From positions 1 through 24,708 of the IMG/VR virus record IMGVR_UViG_3300049846_000176: a DNA stretch of 24,708 nucleotides; one strand, 5' to 3'. This DNA comes from a virus. The position numbers and the translations under genes were made by a program. Below are positions 2,859 through 21,872 of this stretch, in pieces. How positions within the stretch are numbered: position 1 is the stretch's first letter; each line of letters opens with the position of its first letter. The notes under the pieces are model-generated. The model saw only the letters and a list, made by a program, of their open reading frames with translations, was not told the DNA's origin and did no database searches.

Positions 2859-3875
2859 ATGAACATTACCGAAACAATCCTTGAAGGTATCAAAAAAGCC
2901 ATTCATGAAGGTGGCAAACAAACGATTGATTTGCGTGAAGCAAGCAACCTGACAGGTTCTGGTTCTGGCATTGGTGGTAATGTTGTTTTTGATGATGCCT
3001 TTGCCGCATTGCGTTCTGCAAATCCTTTGCGTCAAGGTTCACGCCAAATTACTGTTAGTGGTTCTGATATTCAGTTTGTTGCTAAAACTGGTAATGCCGC
3101 TAACTCTACAAATCCTTGGACTTATGCTGTTGTGCCTGATTCGGGTTCGCCCAATGTGAACACAAGCATTTGGCAATTGCCTGTGCGTGTGATTACTGCA
3201 CAGTTGCCTATCCGCACAGCCGCTATGTCCGACATTAATGGATTGCAACCAACATTGGTTGATGACCTTATGCTTGAATTTAGCCAGTTAGAAGGTCAAT
3301 CCATGATTGTCAATAATGATCAGGCTGGTTCGACTACCACATCTACTGGTGGCACAGATGGTTTGCGTGGCTTAGATTCCTACACAAGTGGTGCGGCTAG
3401 TGCTTATGGCACTTCTGGCACAGCCATTACTGCTGGTATCCATACAATTGCCACAGTTAGCCTTGGCGGGTCTGCTGTGACCTATAACAAGATTGTGGAT
3501 ACGGCTAAAGCGTTGCCGCCTGTGTATTGGTCGTTGCCTGGAACTGCATGGCACATGAGTCCTGACTTCATTCTTGCTTTGCGTGAATTGAAAGACAGTC
3601 AAGGCTTGCCGCTGTTCTTGGAAATTGGCGAAAAAGATGGTGCGGCTGTTGGTAATGTGTTTGGTTTCCCTGTAATTCCCAACCCTTACCTGACCAGCGC
3701 ATTCCCTGCTTATTTGGCTAATTGGGAACAATTCTTGACCATTGGCGACACAGAAACATTCAATGTTCAAATGTTTGAACAAACACAACCAGGCTTTGTG
3801 ACGCTATACGCTGAAAAGCGGGTGGTTTCATCTGTTCGCAATCCATTTGCGGGTGTTCGTATCTCTGCCGCCTAA
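2859..3875 (+). CDS. Second HK97-fold capsid protein (paralogue, no scaffold domain)
   Basis: This 338-residue protein aligns along its length with the mature part of the preceding capsid protein. Shared stretches include NPLR(G/Q)..SR, KTGNA, NTSIWQL, PIRTAA, VDD-MLEFSQ-EG-SMI-NND, GTDGLRGLD and, at the end, EKR...SVR(D/N)PFAGVR. It lacks the N-terminal coiled-coil delta domain and starts with only about 40 residues before the shell fold (MNITETILEGIKK...). It probably co-assembles as a minor or alternative shell subunit, or it may be the product of a duplication that has diverged. The ribosome site is weak (TTTTGGAA before the start). It is expressed downstream of the strong terminator, so probably at a different level from the first copy. 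Confidence 0.85.
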   Translation: MNITETILEGIKKAIHEGGKQTIDLREASNLTGSGSGIGGNVVFDDAFAALRSANPLRQGSRQITVSGSDIQFVAKTGNAANSTNPWTYAVVPDSGSPNVNTSIWQLPVRVITAQLPIRTAAMSDINGLQPTLVDDLMLEFSQLEGQSMIVNNDQAGSTTTSTGGTDGLRGLDSYTSGAASAYGTSGTAITAGIHTIATVSLGGSAVTYNKIVDTAKALPPVYWSLPGTAWHMSPDFILALRELKDSQGLPLFLEIGEKDGAAVGNVFGFPVIPNPYLTSAFPAYLANWEQFLTIGDTETFNVQMFEQTQPGFVTLYAEKRVVSSVRNPFAGVRISAA

Positions 3876-10163: not shown

Positions 10164-10765
10164 ACATTATTGCGCCTGTTGATGGAACAAATAATATTCG
10201 ATACGCTGATTTTGTGCGTATTACAGTTAATGGAACAGTATATCGTTTTACCACAGCGCCTAATGATATAACTGTTTCCGCCGTTGATGCTGGTCCATTT
10301 TCTGCTGTTGGTGTATTGGTTAAAGTTAATGATGTTCAGCGTGACATTAAATCAACAGCCAATGAAACTACAGTAACCATGACAGGCATTGATACAAGTG
10401 TGCTTGGTTGGGTTTTGTCGCAAAACCTAAAAGGTAGCGCAATTCAAATGTGGCATGGCTTTTTTGATACAAATGGGGCTTTGATTACAACTGGCGGCAC
10501 AGGCGGCTTGTATCAATTTTTTAATGGTTTTGTAAATAGTTTTGCCATTACTGAACAATGGATGGAAGAAATTAAAACCTATGTTGGCACAGTAACAATT
10601 TCTGCCGCATCCATTCAACTTGTTTTACAAAATAGAGTGGCTGGTCGCTATACAAACAATAATAGTTGGCAATTTTTTACCCCAGGCGACACTTCCATGA
10701 ATCGAGTTAGTTTTGTGGAAACCATTAATTACCAGTTTGGAAAAGATGCACCCGCAAATTCGTAA
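10160..10765 (+). CDS. Minor tail protein, second tail-tip component
   Basis: A 201-residue beta-patterned protein. It begins with a strand-rich domain (VRITVNGTVYRFTTAP), has a middle with 'MWHGFFDTNGALITTGG...YQFFNGFVNSFAIT' and a C-terminal part 'NRVAGRYTNNNSWQFFTPGDTSMNRV' that resembles the ending of DUF2163/lambda L-type proteins, where a related '...R....W...fpGDt....v' stretch occurs. That resemblance is weak, so treat it as a tail-tip protein of unsure family. It starts inside the previous stop (ATGA) and overlaps the next gene by 20 bases. Confidence 0.55.
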   Translation: MNIIAPVDGTNNIRYADFVRITVNGTVYRFTTAPNDITVSAVDAGPFSAVGVLVKVNDVQRDIKSTANETTVTMTGIDTSVLGWVLSQNLKGSAIQMWHGFFDTNGALITTGGTGGLYQFFNGFVNSFAITEQWMEEIKTYVGTVTISAASIQLVLQNRVAGRYTNNNSWQFFTPGDTSMNRVSFVETINYQFGKDAPANS

Positions 10766-11201
10766 AGTGTCGCCATACGACATTCCACAAATACTAGACC
10801 TATTAAGGGAATACAGGTCTAATATGCCCTATGGCTTTTTGCAAGATGCTGATGATGCCGAATACATCACAGCAATGCTGGCTGAAATCATGGCTGGAAA
10901 GGGCATTCTTTTGGTGGCTGAATGCGATCAGGAAATTGTTGGTTTGATCATGGCTATTGTGATGCCTAGCATTTGGTCGCCCAAGCATTTCTTTTTGACC
11001 GAACTGGCTTACTATGTCAAGCAAGAACATAGGATGGGAACTGCTGGACATAGGTTGTTAAGCCGTTATCTTGAAGAAGCCATACAGATGAAAGAAGATG
11101 GTCGAATCAATCATTTTTTTATCAGCAAAATGGTCAATAGTCCAAATTTGAATTATGGCAAGTTTGGATTTCAAAAATTAGAAGAATTTTGGGTGATGTA
11201 A
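10746..11201 (+). CDS. GNAT-type acyltransferase-like protein in the tail-tip module
   Basis: A 151-residue protein with the GNAT layout: an N-terminal beta-helix 'IRKVSPYDIPQILDLLREY' (usual 'ir.a...D...i..l'), a strand 'GILLVAECDQEIVGLIMA', a motif A-like 'YYVKQEHRMGTAGHRLLSRY' (about residues 89-108) and a final 'YGKFGFQKLEEFWVM'. The acetyl-CoA loop reads HRMGTAG, so the first residue of the usual R/Q-x-x-G-x-G/A motif is His; binding is plausible but imperfect. Start 10746 is preceded by GGAAAAG; an in-frame ATG at 10713 would extend it. In other tail modules this slot often holds a peptidase (NlpC/P60) gene. Target unknown: tail protein, host protein or small molecule are all possible. 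Confidence 0.68.
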   Translation: MHPQIRKVSPYDIPQILDLLREYRSNMPYGFLQDADDAEYITAMLAEIMAGKGILLVAECDQEIVGLIMAIVMPSIWSPKHFFLTELAYYVKQEHRMGTAGHRLLSRYLEEAIQMKEDGRINHFFISKMVNSPNLNYGKFGFQKLEEFWVM

Positions 11202-14525: not shown

Positions 14526-15101
14526 ATGACGCAAGCACTAAATCTTGGATTGCTTGGCAACAATGTAAACACATCTGGACAACTTTCTTTAACTGCTGGT
14601 GTTGCTGGAACATTGCCTATTGCCAATGGAGGCACAAACGCAACAACAGCCGCAACTGCCCTTGCTAATTTGGGCGGCATTGGTTCTTCATCCCCTACTA
14701 TTACCACCCCGACAATTGCAACTATCAAATCTGCCAGTAGTGGTGTTGCAACTGTATTTCAAGATTCTGGTGGCACTCAAATGGGCACATTGTGCCGAGC
14801 CTGGGTAAACTTTAATGGCACAGGCACATCAGGTGCAAACCAAACTATTCGTGGACAATTTAACATTGCCAGCGTCTATAAAAACGGCACAGGCGATTAC
14901 ACGATCAATTTTACAAACAATATGCCTGATATCAATTATTGTTTTGTTGCAACAGTTGGTAACTCTGACAATGGTTTTGTATTCGTTTCTGCCTATACAG
15001 GTCAAAGTGGTCTATCAACAAGTAATTTCCGAATAATCATTCAGGGAACAAACGGCATTCTTTTTGATCGAGACTACATTGGAATTTCTGTGTTCAGATA
15101 A
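14526..15101 (+). CDS. Short tail fibre with knob domain shared with collagen-like fibre
   Basis: A 191-residue protein with a strong ribosome site (GGAGGCGCATAA before the ATG). Residues 28-50 hold the phage fibre stretch LPIANGGTNATTAATALANLGG. Residues 91-191 form a C-terminal domain (AWVNFNGTGT..., FNIASVYKNGTGDYTINF, ANY-like NYCFVATVGNSDNGF, QGTNGILFDRDYIGISVFR) that also ends the collagen-like fibre (15688-18723). The recurring module suggests an exchangeable receptor-binding or trimerisation head. It probably attaches near the tail tip, since it lies directly after the J-like gene. Role beyond that is inference. Confidence 0.75.
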   Translation: MTQALNLGLLGNNVNTSGQLSLTAGVAGTLPIANGGTNATTAATALANLGGIGSSSPTITTPTIATIKSASSGVATVFQDSGGTQMGTLCRAWVNFNGTGTSGANQTIRGQFNIASVYKNGTGDYTINFTNNMPDINYCFVATVGNSDNGFVFVSAYTGQSGLSTSNFRIIIQGTNGILFDRDYIGISVFR

Positions 15102-15196: not shown

Positions 15197-15685
15197 ATGG
15201 CTGTGTTTAACAAAAACACCCTAACGCAAGTTAGCGGGTTCGACAATCCTATTATTGCTGGCGAATTGGTTTGGGAACAACAAACCTATTGGAATCTGGC
15301 GATTAAAGGGACAGATGATGTTACCCCTGTTGATCTAACAACCGCAACGATTGATGCACAGATCATTCGCAGGGAAGTCACAAACATTGAAGATACCCGC
15401 AATGGTTTGACTTTTGATATCGGTAACTATGAGCCGACCCCCGAACCCATCCCTTTGACCATCACCAATCGACATGACTTGCTTGGCGAATTTACGCTGG
15501 TGATTGATGCGGGTGCTTGGGGCTTGATGGCAACAGACCCTGAATTGGATATCAACGCTGTTGATTGTGTTGGCTACTCTGGTCGCATTAAAATCAGTTT
15601 CCCCACAGATGGCACTAACCCTGCCAATGACTACATCATCTTTTTGCTGTTCTTGGTTCGTTCTGATGGCATCATTGTGGAGTGA
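15197..15685 (+). CDS. Fibre-accessory / baseplate-like protein of unknown family
   Basis: A 162-residue, mostly beta protein with a strong ribosome site (GAAAGGGGAACATC). The stretch LVWEQQTYWNLAIKGTDDVTPVDLTTATIDAQIIRR looks like a beta-sandwich, and the protein ends with FLLFLVRSDGIIVE. Domains of this sort occur next to fibres as structural bases, but I do not recognise a named family. It overlaps the collagen-like fibre start region (stop TGA at 15683-15685, next ATG at 15688) and is probably co-translated with it. A possible role is to anchor the fibre to the tail, which is inference. Confidence 0.6.
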   Translation: MAVFNKNTLTQVSGFDNPIIAGELVWEQQTYWNLAIKGTDDVTPVDLTTATIDAQIIRREVTNIEDTRNGLTFDIGNYEPTPEPIPLTITNRHDLLGEFTLVIDAGAWGLMATDPELDINAVDCVGYSGRIKISFPTDGTNPANDYIIFLLFLVRSDGIIVE

Positions 15686-15687
15686 TC

Positions 15688-18600
15688 ATGGGAAACATAA
15701 AAGTTGATGTGGTTGATCAAAACAACCTGAATGTTTCCATTCATCCCCCGACACGCAATGTCATCAATGTTCAGCCCCCTGCACAGCAAAACATAAACAT
15801 CAATCGGGGGCTATATGGTCCAAGCGGAACATCTGGTTACTCTGGTTATAGTGGGTATTCTGGCGTTGGTCTGCCTGGGGCTAGTGGTTATTCTGGCTTT
15901 AGTGGCACTTCTGGTTTTTCAGGATTTAGTGGCGCAACAGGAACATCTGGCGCATCTGGTGAATCAGGCTATTCTGGATTTTCAGGTGAGTCTGGATTCT
16001 CTGGATTTTCGGGTCAAACTGGCGCATCTGGTCTAAGCGGTTTTAGCGGATTCAGCGGTTATTCTGGATTGGATGGGCAATCTGGAATTTCTGGATTTAG
16101 TGGCTATTCAGGCTTTAGCGGTGAGTCAGGCGCAACAGGCGCAACAGGAACATCTGGATATAGCGGTGTATCTGGCTATTCAGGCTTTTCTGGCGAATCT
16201 GGATTTAGCGGTTATTCAGGTGAATCGGGTGCGTCTGGTTTTTCTGGTCTAAGCGGATTCTCTGGTCAATCTGGTTTTAGCGGTTACTCTGGCGAATCTG
16301 GCACAAGTGGCTGGTCTGGCTTTAGCGGATATTCTGGCTGGTCTGGTGAAGTAGGTATTTCTGGATTCTCTGGCGAATCTGGATATTCTGGCTTTTCTGG
16401 TCAATCTGGTTATTCAGGTTTTAGTGGTGAATCTGGTTGGTCAGGGCAATCTGGTTATAGCGGTTGGTCTGGTGAGTCTGGTCAAAGTGGTTGGTCAGGC
16501 ATCAGCGGATTTTCTGGCTATTCGGGTGAAGTTGGCGCATCTGGGTTCAGCGGTTATTCGGGTGAATCAGGCGCATCTGGAATTAGTGGTTTTAGCGGCG
16601 ATTCTGGTATTTCTGGCTATTCTGGACTGAATGGCGAATCGGGCATTTCTGGCTATTCTGGATTTAGTGGTGAGTCTGGAACATCGGGATATTCGGGTTC
16701 TGGTGTAAGTGGTTATTCTGGATTCTCTGGCTATTCAGGCGAACAAGGCATTTCTGGCTTTAGCGGATATTCTGGCGATTCTGGCTTTAGCGGCATCAGC
16801 GGTTACAGCGGTGATTCTGGTTTGTCTGGATTCTCTGGTCAGTCAGGTTTTAGCGGCTATTCTGGTTCTGGCATTTCGGGCTATTCAGGCGTTTCTGGCT
16901 ATTCTGGTTACAGCGGTGCGCCTGGGGCTGGTGGTGCTATTGGCAATTGGGGTTCTTTTTGGGACACAACAGATCAGGTTGCCACATCTGCCAATACTGC
17001 ATATTCAATCACTTTGAATAGTGCAGATTCAAACAACACAGGTGTTAATGTTGTATCTGGTAGCAGAGTAACATTTTCAAATGCTGGTGTTTATAGCCTG
17101 ACTTTTTCAATTCAATTCGTTAACACAGATACACAAATTCATGATGTTAATGTTTGGTTGAGAAAAAATGATAGCGGTAGCACAGGCGATATTCCTGATA
17201 GCGACACCAAATTAAGTATTCAATCCAAACATGGTAGCGTTAATGGCTATGGATTGATGACTGTTAACTATGTGTTAAAAGTTGTTGCCAATGATTACAT
17301 TGAAATGATCTGGTCAACAACTGACACACAAGTTTCAATTCAATCTGACCCTGCTGGCACATCACCAGTTTCGCCATCTGTCCCTGGTGTTATTTTTACG
17401 GCTACACAAGTAATGTATACCCAAAGCGGGTATAGCGGTGTATCTGGTTATAGCGGCTTTTCTGGTATTTCTGGATTTAGCGGTGATTCTGGAATTTCTG
17501 GTTTTTCTGGATATTCAGGAATTGATGGCGCATCAGGAATTTCTGGTTTTTCTGGTTGGTCTGGTTGGTCTGGTGCTATTGGAAATTCGGGGATTAGCGG
17601 TTATTCTGGATTTTCTGGAATAAATGGTGTTTCTGGAATCAGCGGTTATTCTGGTTTTAGTGGTATCTCTGGTTTTAGTGGCACAAATGGCGCATCTGGA
17701 ATTTCTGGCTATTCTGGTTTTTCTGGAATCTCTGGCTATTCTGGGTTTAGTGGTATTTCTGGTTTTAGTGGTCGGTCTGGATTTTCTGGAAGTGGTGTTA
17801 GTGGCTATTCTGGTTTTAGCGGTATCTCTGGTTATTCTGGTTTTTCTGGAAGTGGTGTTTCTGGATATTCTGGATTTAGTGGCATCAGCGGGTATTCAGG
17901 ATTTAGCGGAATTTCTGGTTATAGCGGAACAAACGGCACATCAGGAATTTCTGGATATTCAGGATTTAGTGGAATAAGCGGTTATTCTGGTTTTAGCGGG
18001 ATTTCTGGTTATAGCGGAACAAATGGTGCATCAGGCATCAGCGGTTATTCTGGCTTTAGCGGAACAAATGGAACAAATGGTGCATCAGGTATTTCTGGCT
18101 ATTCTGGTTTCAGCGGAACAAATGGAACAAACGGCACAAATGGCGCATCAGGTATTTCTGGCTATTCTGGTTTTTCTGGCACAAATGGAACAAACGGCAC
18201 AAATGGCGCATCAGGTATTTCTGGCTATTCTGGTTTTTCTGGCACAAATGGAACAAATGGCACAAATGGCGCATCTGGAATTAGCGGATTTTCTGGAATA
18301 AGCGGATATTCAGGATTTTCTGGTCGTTCAGGATTTTCTGGCGCATCTGGTCCAACTGTTTATCCTGGGGCTGGCGTTGCTATTTCAACTGGTAGCGCAT
18401 GGGACACATCCGCATCTACATCACAACTTGCAAAAGCATGGGTAAACTTTGATGGAAGCACAGCCACACGGCGTGGAAATTACAATGTGGGCAGTATCAC
18501 TAAAAATGGAACAGGCGATTGGACAGTAAATTTTTCATCTGCTCTTGCTGATGCAAATTATTCTGTTTTGACAACAAATGGCAACTCAGATGGTGGTTTT

Positions 18601-18723
18601 ACAATTCAAATTATTGCATTTGGTCAATCTAGTCTTTCAACATCTTCTGTTCGCACAATTTCTAAAGGAACAAACGGCGTAAATTATGATCGTGATTATG
18701 TTGGGGTTGCAGTATTTAGATAA
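15688..18723 (+). CDS. Collagen-like Gly-X-Ser tail fibre
   Basis: A 1011-residue fibre. Residues 1-43 are a short beta/Pro-rich base (VDQNNLNVSIHPPTRNVINV). Residues 44 to about 416 are collagen-type triplets with Gly every third residue, mainly GYS, GFS, GES and GIS. Residues about 417-580 are a globular beta-rich insert with a TNF/C1q-like look (VVSGSRVTFSNAGVYSLTFS). Residues 581 to about 889 are a second triplet block with GIS/GYS/GFS and TNG. Residues about 890-1011 are a knob shared with the 14526 fibre. Prolines are almost absent, and aromatic residues fill the X place. Four 'GSG' interruptions break register. The frame opens at GTG 15682, but ATG 15688 has GGAG at good distance. It is probably a trimeric receptor fibre. 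Confidence 0.9.
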   Translation: MGNIKVDVVDQNNLNVSIHPPTRNVINVQPPAQQNININRGLYGPSGTSGYSGYSGYSGVGLPGASGYSGFSGTSGFSGFSGATGTSGASGESGYSGFSGESGFSGFSGQTGASGLSGFSGFSGYSGLDGQSGISGFSGYSGFSGESGATGATGTSGYSGVSGYSGFSGESGFSGYSGESGASGFSGLSGFSGQSGFSGYSGESGTSGWSGFSGYSGWSGEVGISGFSGESGYSGFSGQSGYSGFSGESGWSGQSGYSGWSGESGQSGWSGISGFSGYSGEVGASGFSGYSGESGASGISGFSGDSGISGYSGLNGESGISGYSGFSGESGTSGYSGSGVSGYSGFSGYSGEQGISGFSGYSGDSGFSGISGYSGDSGLSGFSGQSGFSGYSGSGISGYSGVSGYSGYSGAPGAGGAIGNWGSFWDTTDQVATSANTAYSITLNSADSNNTGVNVVSGSRVTFSNAGVYSLTFSIQFVNTDTQIHDVNVWLRKNDSGSTGDIPDSDTKLSIQSKHGSVNGYGLMTVNYVLKVVANDYIEMIWSTTDTQVSIQSDPAGTSPVSPSVPGVIFTATQVMYTQSGYSGVSGYSGFSGISGFSGDSGISGFSGYSGIDGASGISGFSGWSGWSGAIGNSGISGYSGFSGINGVSGISGYSGFSGISGFSGTNGASGISGYSGFSGISGYSGFSGISGFSGRSGFSGSGVSGYSGFSGISGYSGFSGSGVSGYSGFSGISGYSGFSGISGYSGTNGTSGISGYSGFSGISGYSGFSGISGYSGTNGASGISGYSGFSGTNGTNGASGISGYSGFSGTNGTNGTNGASGISGYSGFSGTNGTNGTNGASGISGYSGFSGTNGTNGTNGASGISGFSGISGYSGFSGRSGFSGASGPTVYPGAGVAISTGSAWDTSASTSQLAKAWVNFDGSTATRRGNYNVGSITKNGTGDWTVNFSSALADANYSVLTTNGNSDGGFTIQIIAFGQSSLSTSSVRTISKGTNGVNYDRDYVGVAVFR
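15817..16935 (+). repeat. Collagen-type triplet repeat block 1
   Basis: About 370 codons of Gly-X-Y triplets, mostly GYS, GFS, GES, GQS, GIS and GWS. At DNA level the repeats are not exact: serine is written TCT, TCA, TCG, AGC or AGT, and glycine GGA, GGC, GGT or GGG, in irregular alternation. The triplet register is broken twice by GSG. Confidence 0.92.
17428..18354 (+). repeat. Collagen-type triplet repeat block 2
   Basis: About 309 codons of triplets dominated by GIS, GYS and GFS, changing to GTN-GTN-GTN-GAS-type units near the 3' end. It has less GES than block 1 and far more exact DNA repetition, suggesting more recent expansion. Two GSG interruptions are present. Confidence 0.92.
18118..18243 (+). 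repeat. Exact 63-bp tandem duplication inside fibre gene
   Basis: Two identical 63-base copies (18118-18180 and 18181-18243) encode TNGTNGTNGASGISGYSGFSG. A third, imperfect and truncated copy starts at 18244 with one C-to-T change early on, and a 54-base relative lies just upstream at 18064. The unit is a multiple of three, so copy number can change without shifting frame. Confidence 0.93.
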
Positions 18724-18732
18724 GGAATGAAA

Positions 18733-19140
18733 ATGGAACAAGTGATTGTTTATACAAATGAATTTGGGGGCGTTTCTGTTTGCTTCCCTACTGGTGAAAT
18801 TCCAATTGATCAGGTAAAAAAAGAACATATCCCAGTTGGAGTTGAATCATTTATTATTGATAAACAAACATTGCCAGATATAAATTATTTTTTTGATGCG
18901 TGGGAACAATTAAATGGCGTTATTTCTATCAATTTTGAGAAAGCAAAAAACATAACCAAAAACAGATTGCGAATAGAAAGATCAGAATTGTTGCAACAAC
19001 AAGATATTGCTTTTCAACGAGCATTGGAAAACGGACAGCCAACAGATCAAATTGTTGCTGAAAAGCAAAGATTGCGTGATCTTCCATTGTTGGCAGATTC
19101 ATGCACAACACTTGATCAACTTAAAAACCTAAAGCCGTAA
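18733..19140 (+). CDS. Tail-fibre-associated protein (chaperone-like), unknown family
   Basis: A 135-residue protein directly after the fibre gene, the usual place of a fibre assembly or adapter protein. The N-terminal half is beta-rich (VIVYTNEFGGVSVCFPTGEIPID). The C-terminal half is helical: FEKAKNITKNRLRIERSELLQQQD, then AFQRALENGQPTDQIVAEKQRLRDLPLL. The latter resembles a helix pair often seen at the ends of phage fibre-associated proteins ('kak...r.eR...l...D..f..A.e.g......i...kq.LRdip'). An ATG at 18727 is also in frame, but AAGGAAT fits 18733 better. Function as chaperone is inference. Confidence 0.6.
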   Translation: MEQVIVYTNEFGGVSVCFPTGEIPIDQVKKEHIPVGVESFIIDKQTLPDINYFFDAWEQLNGVISINFEKAKNITKNRLRIERSELLQQQDIAFQRALENGQPTDQIVAEKQRLRDLPLLADSCTTLDQLKNLKP

Positions 19141-19184: not shown

Positions 19185-20474
19185 ATGAAATACAGCGTGG
19201 TCATTCCGACCTATAACAATTGTGATCAATATCTGAAGCCATGTTTAGATTCCATCTTTCGGTGGACTAACATGGCTGATGTTGAAATCATTGTTTCTGC
19301 CAATGGTTGTTATGATAATTCCTATTGGTATCTGCATTCGCTGAAAAACCAATTTGCTTCATTGGGATTTGGTGATCATTTCAAGGTTGTTTGGAATGAC
19401 AAGCCTTTGGGTTATGCCAAAGCCACCAATGAAGGCATCAAAGTCAGCACCTGTCAAAAGATTGTGTTATTGAACAATGACACAATTTTGCTTGAGCAAA
19501 ATAAAAACCAATGGCTAGACATGATGGATGCGGCATTTGCCAATCCTGATGTTGGAATTTCTGCGCCTGTTGTTCAGCGTTGCGAAGCCGCCAATTCTGA
19601 TTTTGCTGTGTTCTTTTGTGTGATGGTGGACAGGAAGGTTTTTGACCGAATTGGCTTGCTGAATGAAGAATATGGTGTGGGTAGCGGTGAAGATGTTGAG
19701 TTTTGCGTAGAAGCAAACAAGGCTGGCTTTGTAATTGCTGAAGCCACCCCTAAATTTTACAACGGCGATATATACACAGGTGGTTTCCCCATTTATCACG
19801 CTGGTGAAGGAACAGTATTAAACCCTGAACTGGTGCAAAATTGGAATCAAATTTTCCATGAAAATGAACTGCGCCTGTCCAAAAAATACAACCCTGACTA
19901 TTACCGATGGTTGTTGACAAACAATTTTGAAAGGGCTGTATTCCTGAAGGGCGACCCTGTTTTTGTTCGTGAGTTTGCTAGATATACATGGGCAAGCCAG
20001 CACATTGTTGGCAAAAGCATTTTTGAACTTGGTTGCACCACAGGCTATGGCAGACAGTTTTTCCCCGATGATGTTCAGTATCTTGGTCTTGACTATGACC
20101 CGATCATCATTGATGTTGCTAAAGAGCAAGGTTGGAATGGCAACAACACATTTGTAAATGGTGATATCAACCATTATGAACTTGGTCAATATGACACCAT
20201 CATTGCGTTTGAAGTCATTGAGCATTTAGACAATGGGATTGAAATTGTCGAAAAGTTAAAGAAGCATTGCAAACGATTGCTGATTACTGTGCCGATGAAT
20301 GAGCCTAAAGGGTTTTGGGGTGAACATCACAAATTGCATGGGTTGAATGAATCGCATTTCCTAGGCTTTAAATTCAACTATATTGATGAAAATGGACAGA
20401 TAACAGACACGCCAAAGCCTGTTGACCAATCAAACAATTGCAACCTGATGATTTGTTGGTGGGACAATGAATAA
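19185..20474 (+). CDS. Bifunctional GT2 glycosyltransferase-methyltransferase fusion
   Basis: A 429-residue protein. Residues 3 to about 210 form a GT-A family 2 domain: VVIPTYNN (5-12), LNNDT (96-100, equivalent to the DXD region), GSGEDVEFC (166-174). Residues about 265-429 form a class I SAM-dependent methyltransferase: motif I IFELGCTTGYGRQF (279-292), the acidic residue at GLDYD (301-305), GDINHY (326-331) and AFEVIEHLDN (341-350). Both halves look intact, so both activities are plausible; substrates are unknown. It has its own ribosome site (AGGACAAG) after a 44-base AT-rich gap and overlaps the next gene by 8 bases. Most likely it builds or edits a glycan together with the next two genes. 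Confidence 0.85.
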   Translation: MKYSVVIPTYNNCDQYLKPCLDSIFRWTNMADVEIIVSANGCYDNSYWYLHSLKNQFASLGFGDHFKVVWNDKPLGYAKATNEGIKVSTCQKIVLLNNDTILLEQNKNQWLDMMDAAFANPDVGISAPVVQRCEAANSDFAVFFCVMVDRKVFDRIGLLNEEYGVGSGEDVEFCVEANKAGFVIAEATPKFYNGDIYTGGFPIYHAGEGTVLNPELVQNWNQIFHENELRLSKKYNPDYYRWLLTNNFERAVFLKGDPVFVREFARYTWASQHIVGKSIFELGCTTGYGRQFFPDDVQYLGLDYDPIIIDVAKEQGWNGNNTFVNGDINHYELGQYDTIIAFEVIEHLDNGIEIVEKLKKHCKRLLITVPMNEPKGFWGEHHKLHGLNESHFLGFKFNYIDENGQITDTPKPVDQSNNCNLMICWWDNE

Positions 20475-21435
20475 GATTCTGTGTTCTATTTCAACAAGGG
20501 GCAGATATCACACGACACTACCCCTTGCGTTACAAGCCATCATTAATCAAACAAGGCAGGTTGATAAGTTGGTCATTTTTGATGACAACGATGAGCCGCA
20601 AGATATGCGAAAGGAATTGATCTATTCGCATTTCTTTCAGATCATGGATGCAAAGGGAATCCCTTGGGAATGGCAATTTGCAGGTAAAAAAGGGCAACAC
20701 CATAACCATCAGATTGCAAACCGCATGGGCTACGATTGGGTTTGGCGCATTGATGATGATGCGATACCTGAACCTAATGTGCTTGAAACATTATGCAAAT
20801 ACATTAGTCATGATGTTGGTGCTATTGGCAGTTCTGTGCTGACAATGCCATGCGATACAAAACCAAATAACGCATCAGGCAAGATTGATCTGATTGATCA
20901 AGAGCCGAACATTCAATGGGGTCAAATTACAGCCCCCCAAATGGTTGAGCATTTGCATTGCACTTTCCTGTATCGTGCTGGCATCCATGACTACAACACA
21001 GGTCTATCTAGGGTTGCCCATAGGGAAGAAACTTTGTTTACCTATGGCTTGCATCAAAAAGGCTACAAAATTTGGGCTGTGCCCAATGCTGTGACATGGC
21101 ACATGAAAAACCCGCAAGGTGGCATTCGATCTGAAACCAATCAAGCCCTGTTTGAGCATGACGAAAGAATTTTTAGGAATATCCTTGCCGCTAGGGACAA
21201 GACCATTGTGGTGCTGAATTGTGGAATGGGTGATCATGTCGTTTTTAGCCATGTGTTGCCCAAAATTAAAAACCCTTGGGTATTTACTTGCTACCCTGAT
21301 TTGGTGGCTGGCGAACCCATAGCCAAGGCAGAATCCCTGTTTGGCAGTCTTGAGCAATTTAGCGTGTATTCTTGGATGGACAAACACAAATGGAAGCAAA
21401 GCCTTCAATCTGCGTTTGAAAGGATGTATCTGTGA
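20467..21435 (+). CDS. GT2 glycosyltransferase with C-terminal GT9-like half-domain
   Basis: A 322-residue protein. Residues 1 to about 240 form a GT-A transferase with metal-binding IDDDAIPEPN (95-104), the acceptor-side HREETLFTYGL (185-195) and a late His in AVTWHM (208-213). Residues about 245-322 look like the N-terminal Rossmann half of a heptosyltransferase (GT9): IVVLNCGMGDHVVFSHVLP (247-265), then WVFTCYPDLV. The other half of that fold is the next gene. The stop TGA shares bases with the GTG start of that gene (GTGA). Probably a sugar-transferring protein or subunit; donor and acceptor unknown. Confidence 0.8.
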   Translation: MNKILCSISTRGRYHTTLPLALQAIINQTRQVDKLVIFDDNDEPQDMRKELIYSHFFQIMDAKGIPWEWQFAGKKGQHHNHQIANRMGYDWVWRIDDDAIPEPNVLETLCKYISHDVGAIGSSVLTMPCDTKPNNASGKIDLIDQEPNIQWGQITAPQMVEHLHCTFLYRAGIHDYNTGLSRVAHREETLFTYGLHQKGYKIWAVPNAVTWHMKNPQGGIRSETNQALFEHDERIFRNILAARDKTIVVLNCGMGDHVVFSHVLPKIKNPWVFTCYPDLVAGEPIAKAESLFGSLEQFSVYSWMDKHKWKQSLQSAFERMYL

Positions 21436-21872
21436 TCATCATTGCCCCTTTTGCCCAAAAACTGCACAGCGGCAAAGAAAACCCTAAAAATTACCCTTTT
21501 TGGAAAAAGTTAGTTGATTCCATTGAATGCCCAATTGTTCAGGTTGGTCGGTCTGGTGAACAAGAGTTGGTTCAAGATTGTCGGTTTGATTTGACCATTC
21601 CTGAACTGCGCCAATTGATCAGGGAATGCAAAACATGGATTGGTGTTGATAGTTTCTTTCAGCACCTAGCCTGGGATGAAGAAAAGCCAGGAATTGTGCT
21701 TTGGTCGGTTTCTGACCCGCTAATTTTTGGGCATCCAGAGAATGTCAACCTGCTTAAACATAGGGATTATCTGGCTGGAAACCAATTCTTACATTGGGAT
21801 TACACAAAGCACAATCCAGATGCATTTGTTGAGCCACAAGAAGTTGTTAAACACCTGACCAAATTTCTATAA
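21432..21872 (+). CDS. GT9-like (heptosyltransferase) C-terminal half
   Basis: A 146-residue protein, GTG start. It holds the C-terminal half of a GT-B family 9 fold: NYPFWKKLVDSI (20-31), PIVQVGRSGEQELV (34-47), DLTIPELRQLIRECKTWIGV (53-72), then DSFFQHLAW (73-81), the counterpart of the usual donor-binding DSG..H.A stretch, and SDPLIFGHPEN (94-104). Taken with the end of the preceding gene, this makes a complete but compact two-domain transferase, so the two products may function as one enzyme complex. An artefactual frameshift separating a single gene is the main alternative, since the two frames differ by one base. Confidence 0.78.
   Translation: MIIIAPFAQKLHSGKENPKNYPFWKKLVDSIECPIVQVGRSGEQELVQDCRFDLTIPELRQLIRECKTWIGVDSFFQHLAWDEEKPGIVLWSVSDPLIFGHPENVNLLKHRDYLAGNQFLHWDYTKHNPDAFVEPQEVVKHLTKFL

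Follow-up and report, generated by a model that had tools for sequence, protein, structure and literature searches.

Sugar-transfer genes with a split GT9 accompany Gly-X-Ser collagen-like fibres in uncultured phages and are inferred to glycosylate them

Introduction

When a phage carries sugar-transfer genes directly behind the gene for a serine-rich, collagen-like fibre, is that fibre their substrate? The question is raised by a 24,708-base viral contig (the window, meaning the whole stretch of DNA that was analysed), which holds a portal end, a protease, two capsid-fold genes, tail genes, fibres, and lysis genes, and is a contig of a siphophage-type virus. A first-pass annotation of this DNA had proposed that the enzymes glycosylate the fibre or the capsid, and had named the remodeling of host surface glycans and the synthesis of a nucleotide-linked sugar as alternatives. 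Glycosylation of collagen-like proteins by adjacently encoded transferases is already known, as is virion glycosylation by phage enzymes. The literature searched contained nothing on point for collagen-like phage fibres paired with glycosyltransferases (GTs), and we did not find in it the combination of fibre and cassette, the split GT9-GT2 enzyme, or the Ser/Thr rule described below.

The locus and its fibre

The fibre gene, the small gene behind it, and three enzyme genes form a single tight run on one strand (Table 1), with a 3-bp gap after the fibre, a 44-bp gap before the enzyme genes, and overlaps of 8 and 4 bases among these. All three enzyme ORFs are intact, confirming the earlier description of three sugar-transfer genes behind a Ser-rich collagen-like fibre and its associated protein.

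Table 1. Genes of the fibre-cassette run in the window and, in the last row, relatives discussed in the text
Feature	Position	Strand	Details
Collagen-like fibre, proposed substrate	15682..18723	+	1013 aa; Pfam Collagen E 6e-95
Small gene in the fibre-to-cassette interval	18727..19140	+	137 aa; phrog_20196 E 2e-14
Gene 1, GT2 fused to class-I SAM methyltransferase (MTase)	19185..20474	+	429 aa; Pfam GT2 E 7e-14, MTase E 2e-9
Gene 2, GT2 fused to truncated GT9 N-lobe	20467..21435	+	322 aa; GT2 E 2e-6
Gene 3, GT9 C-lobe (donor-binding half)	21432..21872	+	146 aa, GTG start; GT9 E 6e-5
Gly-X-Thr-fibre relatives with a different GT2: L449-L453 (G051, G059, G075, G061, G079)			

The fibre contains 228 Gly-X-Y triplets, 194 of them with Ser at Y and the remaining Y positions (~15%) with other residues, while X is mainly Phe, Tyr, or Ile; there is hardly any proline. 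It is laid out as a Gly-X-Ser shaft, a non-collagen insert at about aa 425-545, and a C-terminal tip domain. In reported bacterial collagens the favored residues are Pro for X and Thr for Y (PMC8968730), so this Pro-poor, Ser-rich collagen type is unusual. The product of the small gene matched a tail-fibre-assembly family only marginally (E 0.026) and may possibly be a fibre chaperone.

Other features of the window were also observed. Comparison of translations revealed a homologous C-terminal tip domain of ~100 aa in a small fibre gene (14526-15101) and the collagen fibre, and fibA was ~50% identical to the fibre end of L003. A GNAT-type acetyltransferase (10713-11201; PF00583 E 2e-5) sits among the tail genes, with a tail protein on one side and a J-like protein on the other.

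Enzyme domains

Membership of the GT2 family was met by both genes 1 and 2, which scored 52.5 and 28.1 bits against Pfam PF00535 (cut-off 23.3). Gene 3 was barely above the cut-off for the GT9 family (PF01075, 23 vs 22 bits), and its membership as a GT9 C-lobe was met by this profile match together with donor-site residues of WaaC: in an alignment of the gene 3 profile to Escherichia coli WaaC, K19, E43, and D73 line up with K192, E222, and D261, which we take to be part of the WaaC ADP-heptose site. These three residues are invariant in 44 gene 3 sequences, along with H78 and S94-D95-P96; in gene 2, D96-D97-D98, E187-E188, and G253-x-G255-D256-H257 are invariant across 49 sequences with identity down to 40%. 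Gene 1 occurs in relatives either as a GT2-MTase (~405-460 aa) or as an MTase alone (~205-235 aa), and the constant partners are therefore the MTase, the GT2-GT9 N-lobe protein (GT2-GT9N), and the GT9 C-lobe (GT9C). Alignment thus demonstrates that these three core proteins are conserved, with their predicted catalytic motifs intact.

AlphaFold models of gene 2 and gene 3 were confident (pLDDT 91 and 95, respectively). The best solved structural matches of the gene 3 model in Foldseek were WaaF (E 9e-5) and TibC (E 2e-4), and WaaC was also similar. The gene 2 model had many GT-A matches, including GalNAc-T, the collagen galactosyltransferase COLGALT1, and TarP; these are unspecific and represent a generic GT-A fold. 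Neither donor nor acceptor can be read from the sequence.

A GT9 enzyme split over two genes

By domain assignment, the two GT9 halves would be the two lobes of one split GT9, with the N-lobe fused to GT2. The start codon of gene 3 overlaps the stop codon of gene 2, and the junction (GTGA in the window) is an identical 4-base ATGA/GTGA overlap in 167 of 170 loci. This recurrence rules out an annotation error or frameshift as the cause of the split, and because of it the arrangement of the locus is neither chance nor sequencing error. A programmed frameshift in place of two proteins is unneeded: overlaps of the ATGA/GTGA kind are common in translationally coupled genes, and the gene 2/gene 3 junctions sampled revealed no slippery run in common. 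Distant phages that have gene 2 joined to a GT2-MTase (L438, L440, and L441) also keep the split, and one distant relative, L305, carries the GT2, GT9 N-lobe, and GT9 C-lobe in a single frame of 573 aa, immediately followed by a Gly-X-Ser fibre. Given the conserved overlap, the retention of the split in distant phages, and the fused form, the products of genes 2 and 3 most likely work together in a single complex.

The GT9-like N-lobe of gene 2 is unusually short, at ~78 aa from about aa 244. When the two GT9 halves were joined and compared with Pfam, the match still stopped short of this N-lobe, which remained unscored. On one other contig (G011), a full-length GT9 (L420) stands as a gene of its own behind a GT2 gene; the GxGDH-type Gly-Asp motifs of this protein and of L305 aligned only weakly with the N-lobe LGD motif of the GT9 structure 3TOV. 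Alg13/Alg14 is likewise a split GT-B, with its two lobes made as two polypeptides, but that enzyme is membrane-associated, whereas the one described here belongs to GT9, is apparently soluble, and has its N-lobe fused to GT2.

The cassette follows fibres with serine at Y

The first-pass annotation had proposed its own test, that the cassette should co-occur with Gly-X-Ser fibres in other phages. Run with controls, this test was strongly positive, and the cassette tracked Ser rather than Thr at Y. Loci located through their GT genes alone were clustered at 98% identity, requiring at least 4 kb of upstream DNA and taking the member with the longest upstream stretch as representative: a Gly-X-Ser collagen lay upstream in all 52 clusters, and another type of collagen in none. 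Pooled, the upstream fibres of these clusters had Ser at 88% of Y positions, and their X positions were 31% Tyr, 22% Ile, 17% Phe, and only 0.5% Pro. Locus by locus, an upstream Gly-X-Ser collagen was found on the same strand in 98/102 cases and on the opposite strand in none, with a median gap of 409 nt. The BclA-type criterion, a collagen-like substrate gene side by side with GT genes, is therefore met.

Sampling by fibre type gave the same association. We detected full-length GT2-GT9N in half of the contigs of at least 17 kb that were picked by a Gly-[Phe/Tyr]-Ser DNA pattern (24/48) and in no contig with a Gly-Pro-Thr pattern (0/48; Fisher p 2e-9), although differences in habitat and base composition between these samples are possible. 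More generally, the contigs are fragments, and full independence of the sequence clusters cannot be assumed. Among the 24 Ser-pattern contigs without the gene, as we read them, 11 had only short or antisense matches to the pattern and lacked a genuine Ser array, five were cut shortly past the fibre, and eight were intact counter-examples. There are thus at least eight untruncated long Ser arrays without GT2-GT9N (G001, G007, G011, G012, G013, G026, G032, and G039), and a Gly-X-Ser fibre therefore does not always need the cassette. Two of these contigs, G011 and G026, encode other GT2 genes ~5-14 kb downstream of the array, and in G007 a weak GT2 match and sugar-nucleotide genes lie several kb upstream of it; G001 has no GT2-family match anywhere in the contig.

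As phage genomes are mosaic, the cassette could be carried along neutrally, or could be a module for general sugar metabolism or DNA modification that lies near the fibre for merely historical reasons; viral GTs hypermodify DNA in some phages (Pyle 2024, cited in PMC12619734). Distant gene 2 homologues (40-45% identity) on contigs of 18-494 kb are also found in Gly-X-Ser records, however, and the association holds down to 40% identity, across contig sizes of 17 to 494 kb, and with unrelated capsids, with invariant catalytic residues throughout, while the same gene 2 query found nothing in the 48 Thr-type contigs. We regard a passenger or general module as very unlikely.

Phage GTs of the Gtr kind alter host surface glycans, and the cassette could instead modify the host glycan that is the receptor of the fibre, blocking re-adsorption or superinfection and making fibre and cassette a unit of receptor specificity. 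GT9 and GT2 are normal LPS enzymes, and co-transfer of fibre and cassette would be expected in this case too, but the cassette tracks the chemistry of the shaft and not a given tip, homologues of the window tip domain being found in only nine loci. We also detected no membrane-like stretch in the three enzyme proteins (maximum Kyte-Doolittle over 19 residues 1.3) and no flippase-like gene within the cassette, which has a late structural position. Host glycan remodeling is thus the weaker explanation, and we consider it distinctly unlikely. A membrane-bound Gtr-type cassette (GtrB/GtrC plus the flippase GtrA) was rejected for want of membrane segments in the three proteins; the GtrB-like PHROG match in the window was only weak (E 0.096). 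Synthesis of a nucleotide-linked sugar also lost ground, as the cassette contains no sugar-nucleotide synthesis domain.

The cassette does not follow the capsid lineage

We found 33 records with a relative of the window capsid protein, of which only three contained gene 2, all with Ser fibres (G049, G056, and the isolate phage P19250A; fraction of Ser at Y 0.72-0.86). None of the ten capsid relatives with Thr-type collagen (0.00-0.04) carried the cassette (Fisher 0.0035, excluding G050, a twin of the window that is cut inside the fibre). Conversely, the window capsid matched only 7 of 44 cassette records, five of these over the full capsid length, so the cassette is not bound to any one lineage of capsids. 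Because it follows the Y-position chemistry of the fibre instead, the fibre is favored over the capsid as substrate. Glycosylation of another virion protein, such as the capsid or tail tube, has a precedent in that virion glycosylation by phage GTs is established (Freeman 2023, cited in PMC12619734), yet capsid relatives without a Gly-X-Ser fibre also lacked the cassette, which was found with unrelated capsids. We judge this to be the least likely of the explanations weighed here.

The capsid-fold (PF05065) genes of the window stand in tandem (1459-2799 and 2859-3875), and both copies are also adjacent in the five cassette records that match the capsid over its full length (G029, G047, G086, G088, and G089).

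A GT2 domain of any kind was present in 8/14 of the capsid-relative records with collagen and 0/19 of those without (7/10 vs 0/7 among records of at least 30 kb). Half of the ten Thr-fibre phages encode a different GT2 ~2-4.5 kb beyond the fibre, four as GT2-TPR fusions and one as a GT2-methyltransferase (Table 1). These genes are possibly a second, Thr-matched cassette, and each of the two fibre types, Ser and Thr, may be served by transferases of its own.

Proposed mechanism

The observed gene anatomy, conservation, and association with Gly-X-Ser fibres lead us to suggest that the cassette probably O-glycosylates the Y-position serines of its own collagen-like fibre. Co-occurrence supports this hypothesis, though the substrate is inferred from sequence and there is no biochemical evidence of a sugar; the donor, the identity of the sugar, the order of steps, and the role are likewise inferred. 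Newly made chains would be modified while still in the cytoplasm of the host, either ahead of fibre assembly or in the course of it. Together, the GT2 domains and the GT9 complex (the gene 2 N-lobe with gene 3) would build a short chain of sugars on the Y serines, which recur at regular intervals, and the methyltransferase would O-methylate one sugar of this chain, perhaps as a cap. The serine may be primed as it is by TibC, though the evidence assigns the first sugar to no particular enzyme. As donor for the GT9, the most likely candidate would be ADP-heptose or a related ADP-sugar from the host LPS pathway; ADP-heptose itself is a tentative inference without an enzyme assay, and we rate it somewhat below an even chance. 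Some collagens carry Y-position sugars in place of hydroxyproline, and a sugar here would probably serve to stiffen, hydrate, or shield a shaft nearly without proline.

More broadly, there may be a widespread system in which each Gly-X-Ser serine is O-glycosylated by the split GT9-GT2 complex, possibly heptosylated and methyl-capped, with the sugar replacing helix-stabilizing proline or hydroxyproline and with lineages swapping Ser and Thr fibres together with matching transferases. This fuller picture is speculative, and we think it rather doubtful as a whole.

Comparison with known systems

A close parallel in gene layout is in Clostridioides difficile, where the O-GlcNAc transferase gene sgtA adjoins the gene for a collagen-like spore protein, bclA3, and SgtA glycosylates the BclA3 repeats, placing sugar on Thr of the repeat region and also on Ser in test peptides (PMC7157674). 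The system described here differs in involving a phage fibre, Ser at Y, and three enzymes that include a methyltransferase and the split GT9-GT2. The bacterial autotransporter heptosyltransferases (BAHT) TibC and AAH share a GT9-type fold and glycosylate many Ser, not Thr, of a repetitive surface protein (PMC4358343). TibC is, by fold, the protein-modifying GT9 nearest to gene 3, and its specificity for Ser and not Thr fits the Ser-only association of the cassette, whose enzyme is instead split over two genes and fused to GT2. Membership of the BAHT family was not met, as no window protein matched the profile TIGR04414 at E 0.01 and L305 reached 16 bits against a cut-off of 200. Mycobacteriophages also encode GTs that act on virion proteins (Freeman 2023, via PMC12619734), but their known targets are the C-termini of capsid and tail-tube subunits and not collagen-like fibres.

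Distribution and implications

The carriers of both cassette and Gly-X-Ser fibre are many uncultured, mostly freshwater viruses of bacteria. The cassette was present in only one of 50,697 isolate records, that of Methylophilaceae phage P19250A (KX815270), whose host is Methylopumilus (PMC7678222). As in the window, a Gly-X-Ser fibre (gp23, 1201 aa) is directly followed by the cassette (gp24, gp25, and gp26), but the first gene is an MTase only; gp24-gp26 are annotated "hypothetical protein" and gp23 "tail length tape-measure protein". Querying isolate proteins with the repeat shaft of the fibre gave no match, probably owing to low-complexity filtering. A cellular origin of the cassette was rejected: a scan for close relatives found it in no cellular genome contig, and a profile scan matched three MAG contigs, one of which (L583, binned to an archaeon, labeled Candidatus Nitrosotalea) has a gene 2 homologue with a Gly-X-Ser array and is probably a mis-binned phage contig.

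If the proposed glycosylation is real, sugar-coated collagen-like fibres would be common in freshwater and other environmental phages, on contigs from ~35 kb and siphophage-type to 494 kb, while the enzyme genes of the sole isolate record with the cassette are annotated as hypothetical. It would also provide an enzyme and substrate that can be tested directly as a pair, an unusual GT9 in split form, glycosylated collagen from a natural source, and a sequence rule by which Ser or Thr at the third position predicts the accompanying transferase genes.

Further GT2 genes were observed on two other contigs. In the 494-kb contig G034, the GT2-GT9 pair is preceded at ~3.5 kb by a 2500-aa frame (L435, 2128-9627) that combines five GT2 and three GT17 domains with several methyltransferase domains. 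In G042, a GT2 gene (L459, 7541-8863) is followed after ~60 bases by a GPK/GDK-type collagen frame, in which Y is mostly Lys and never Ser.
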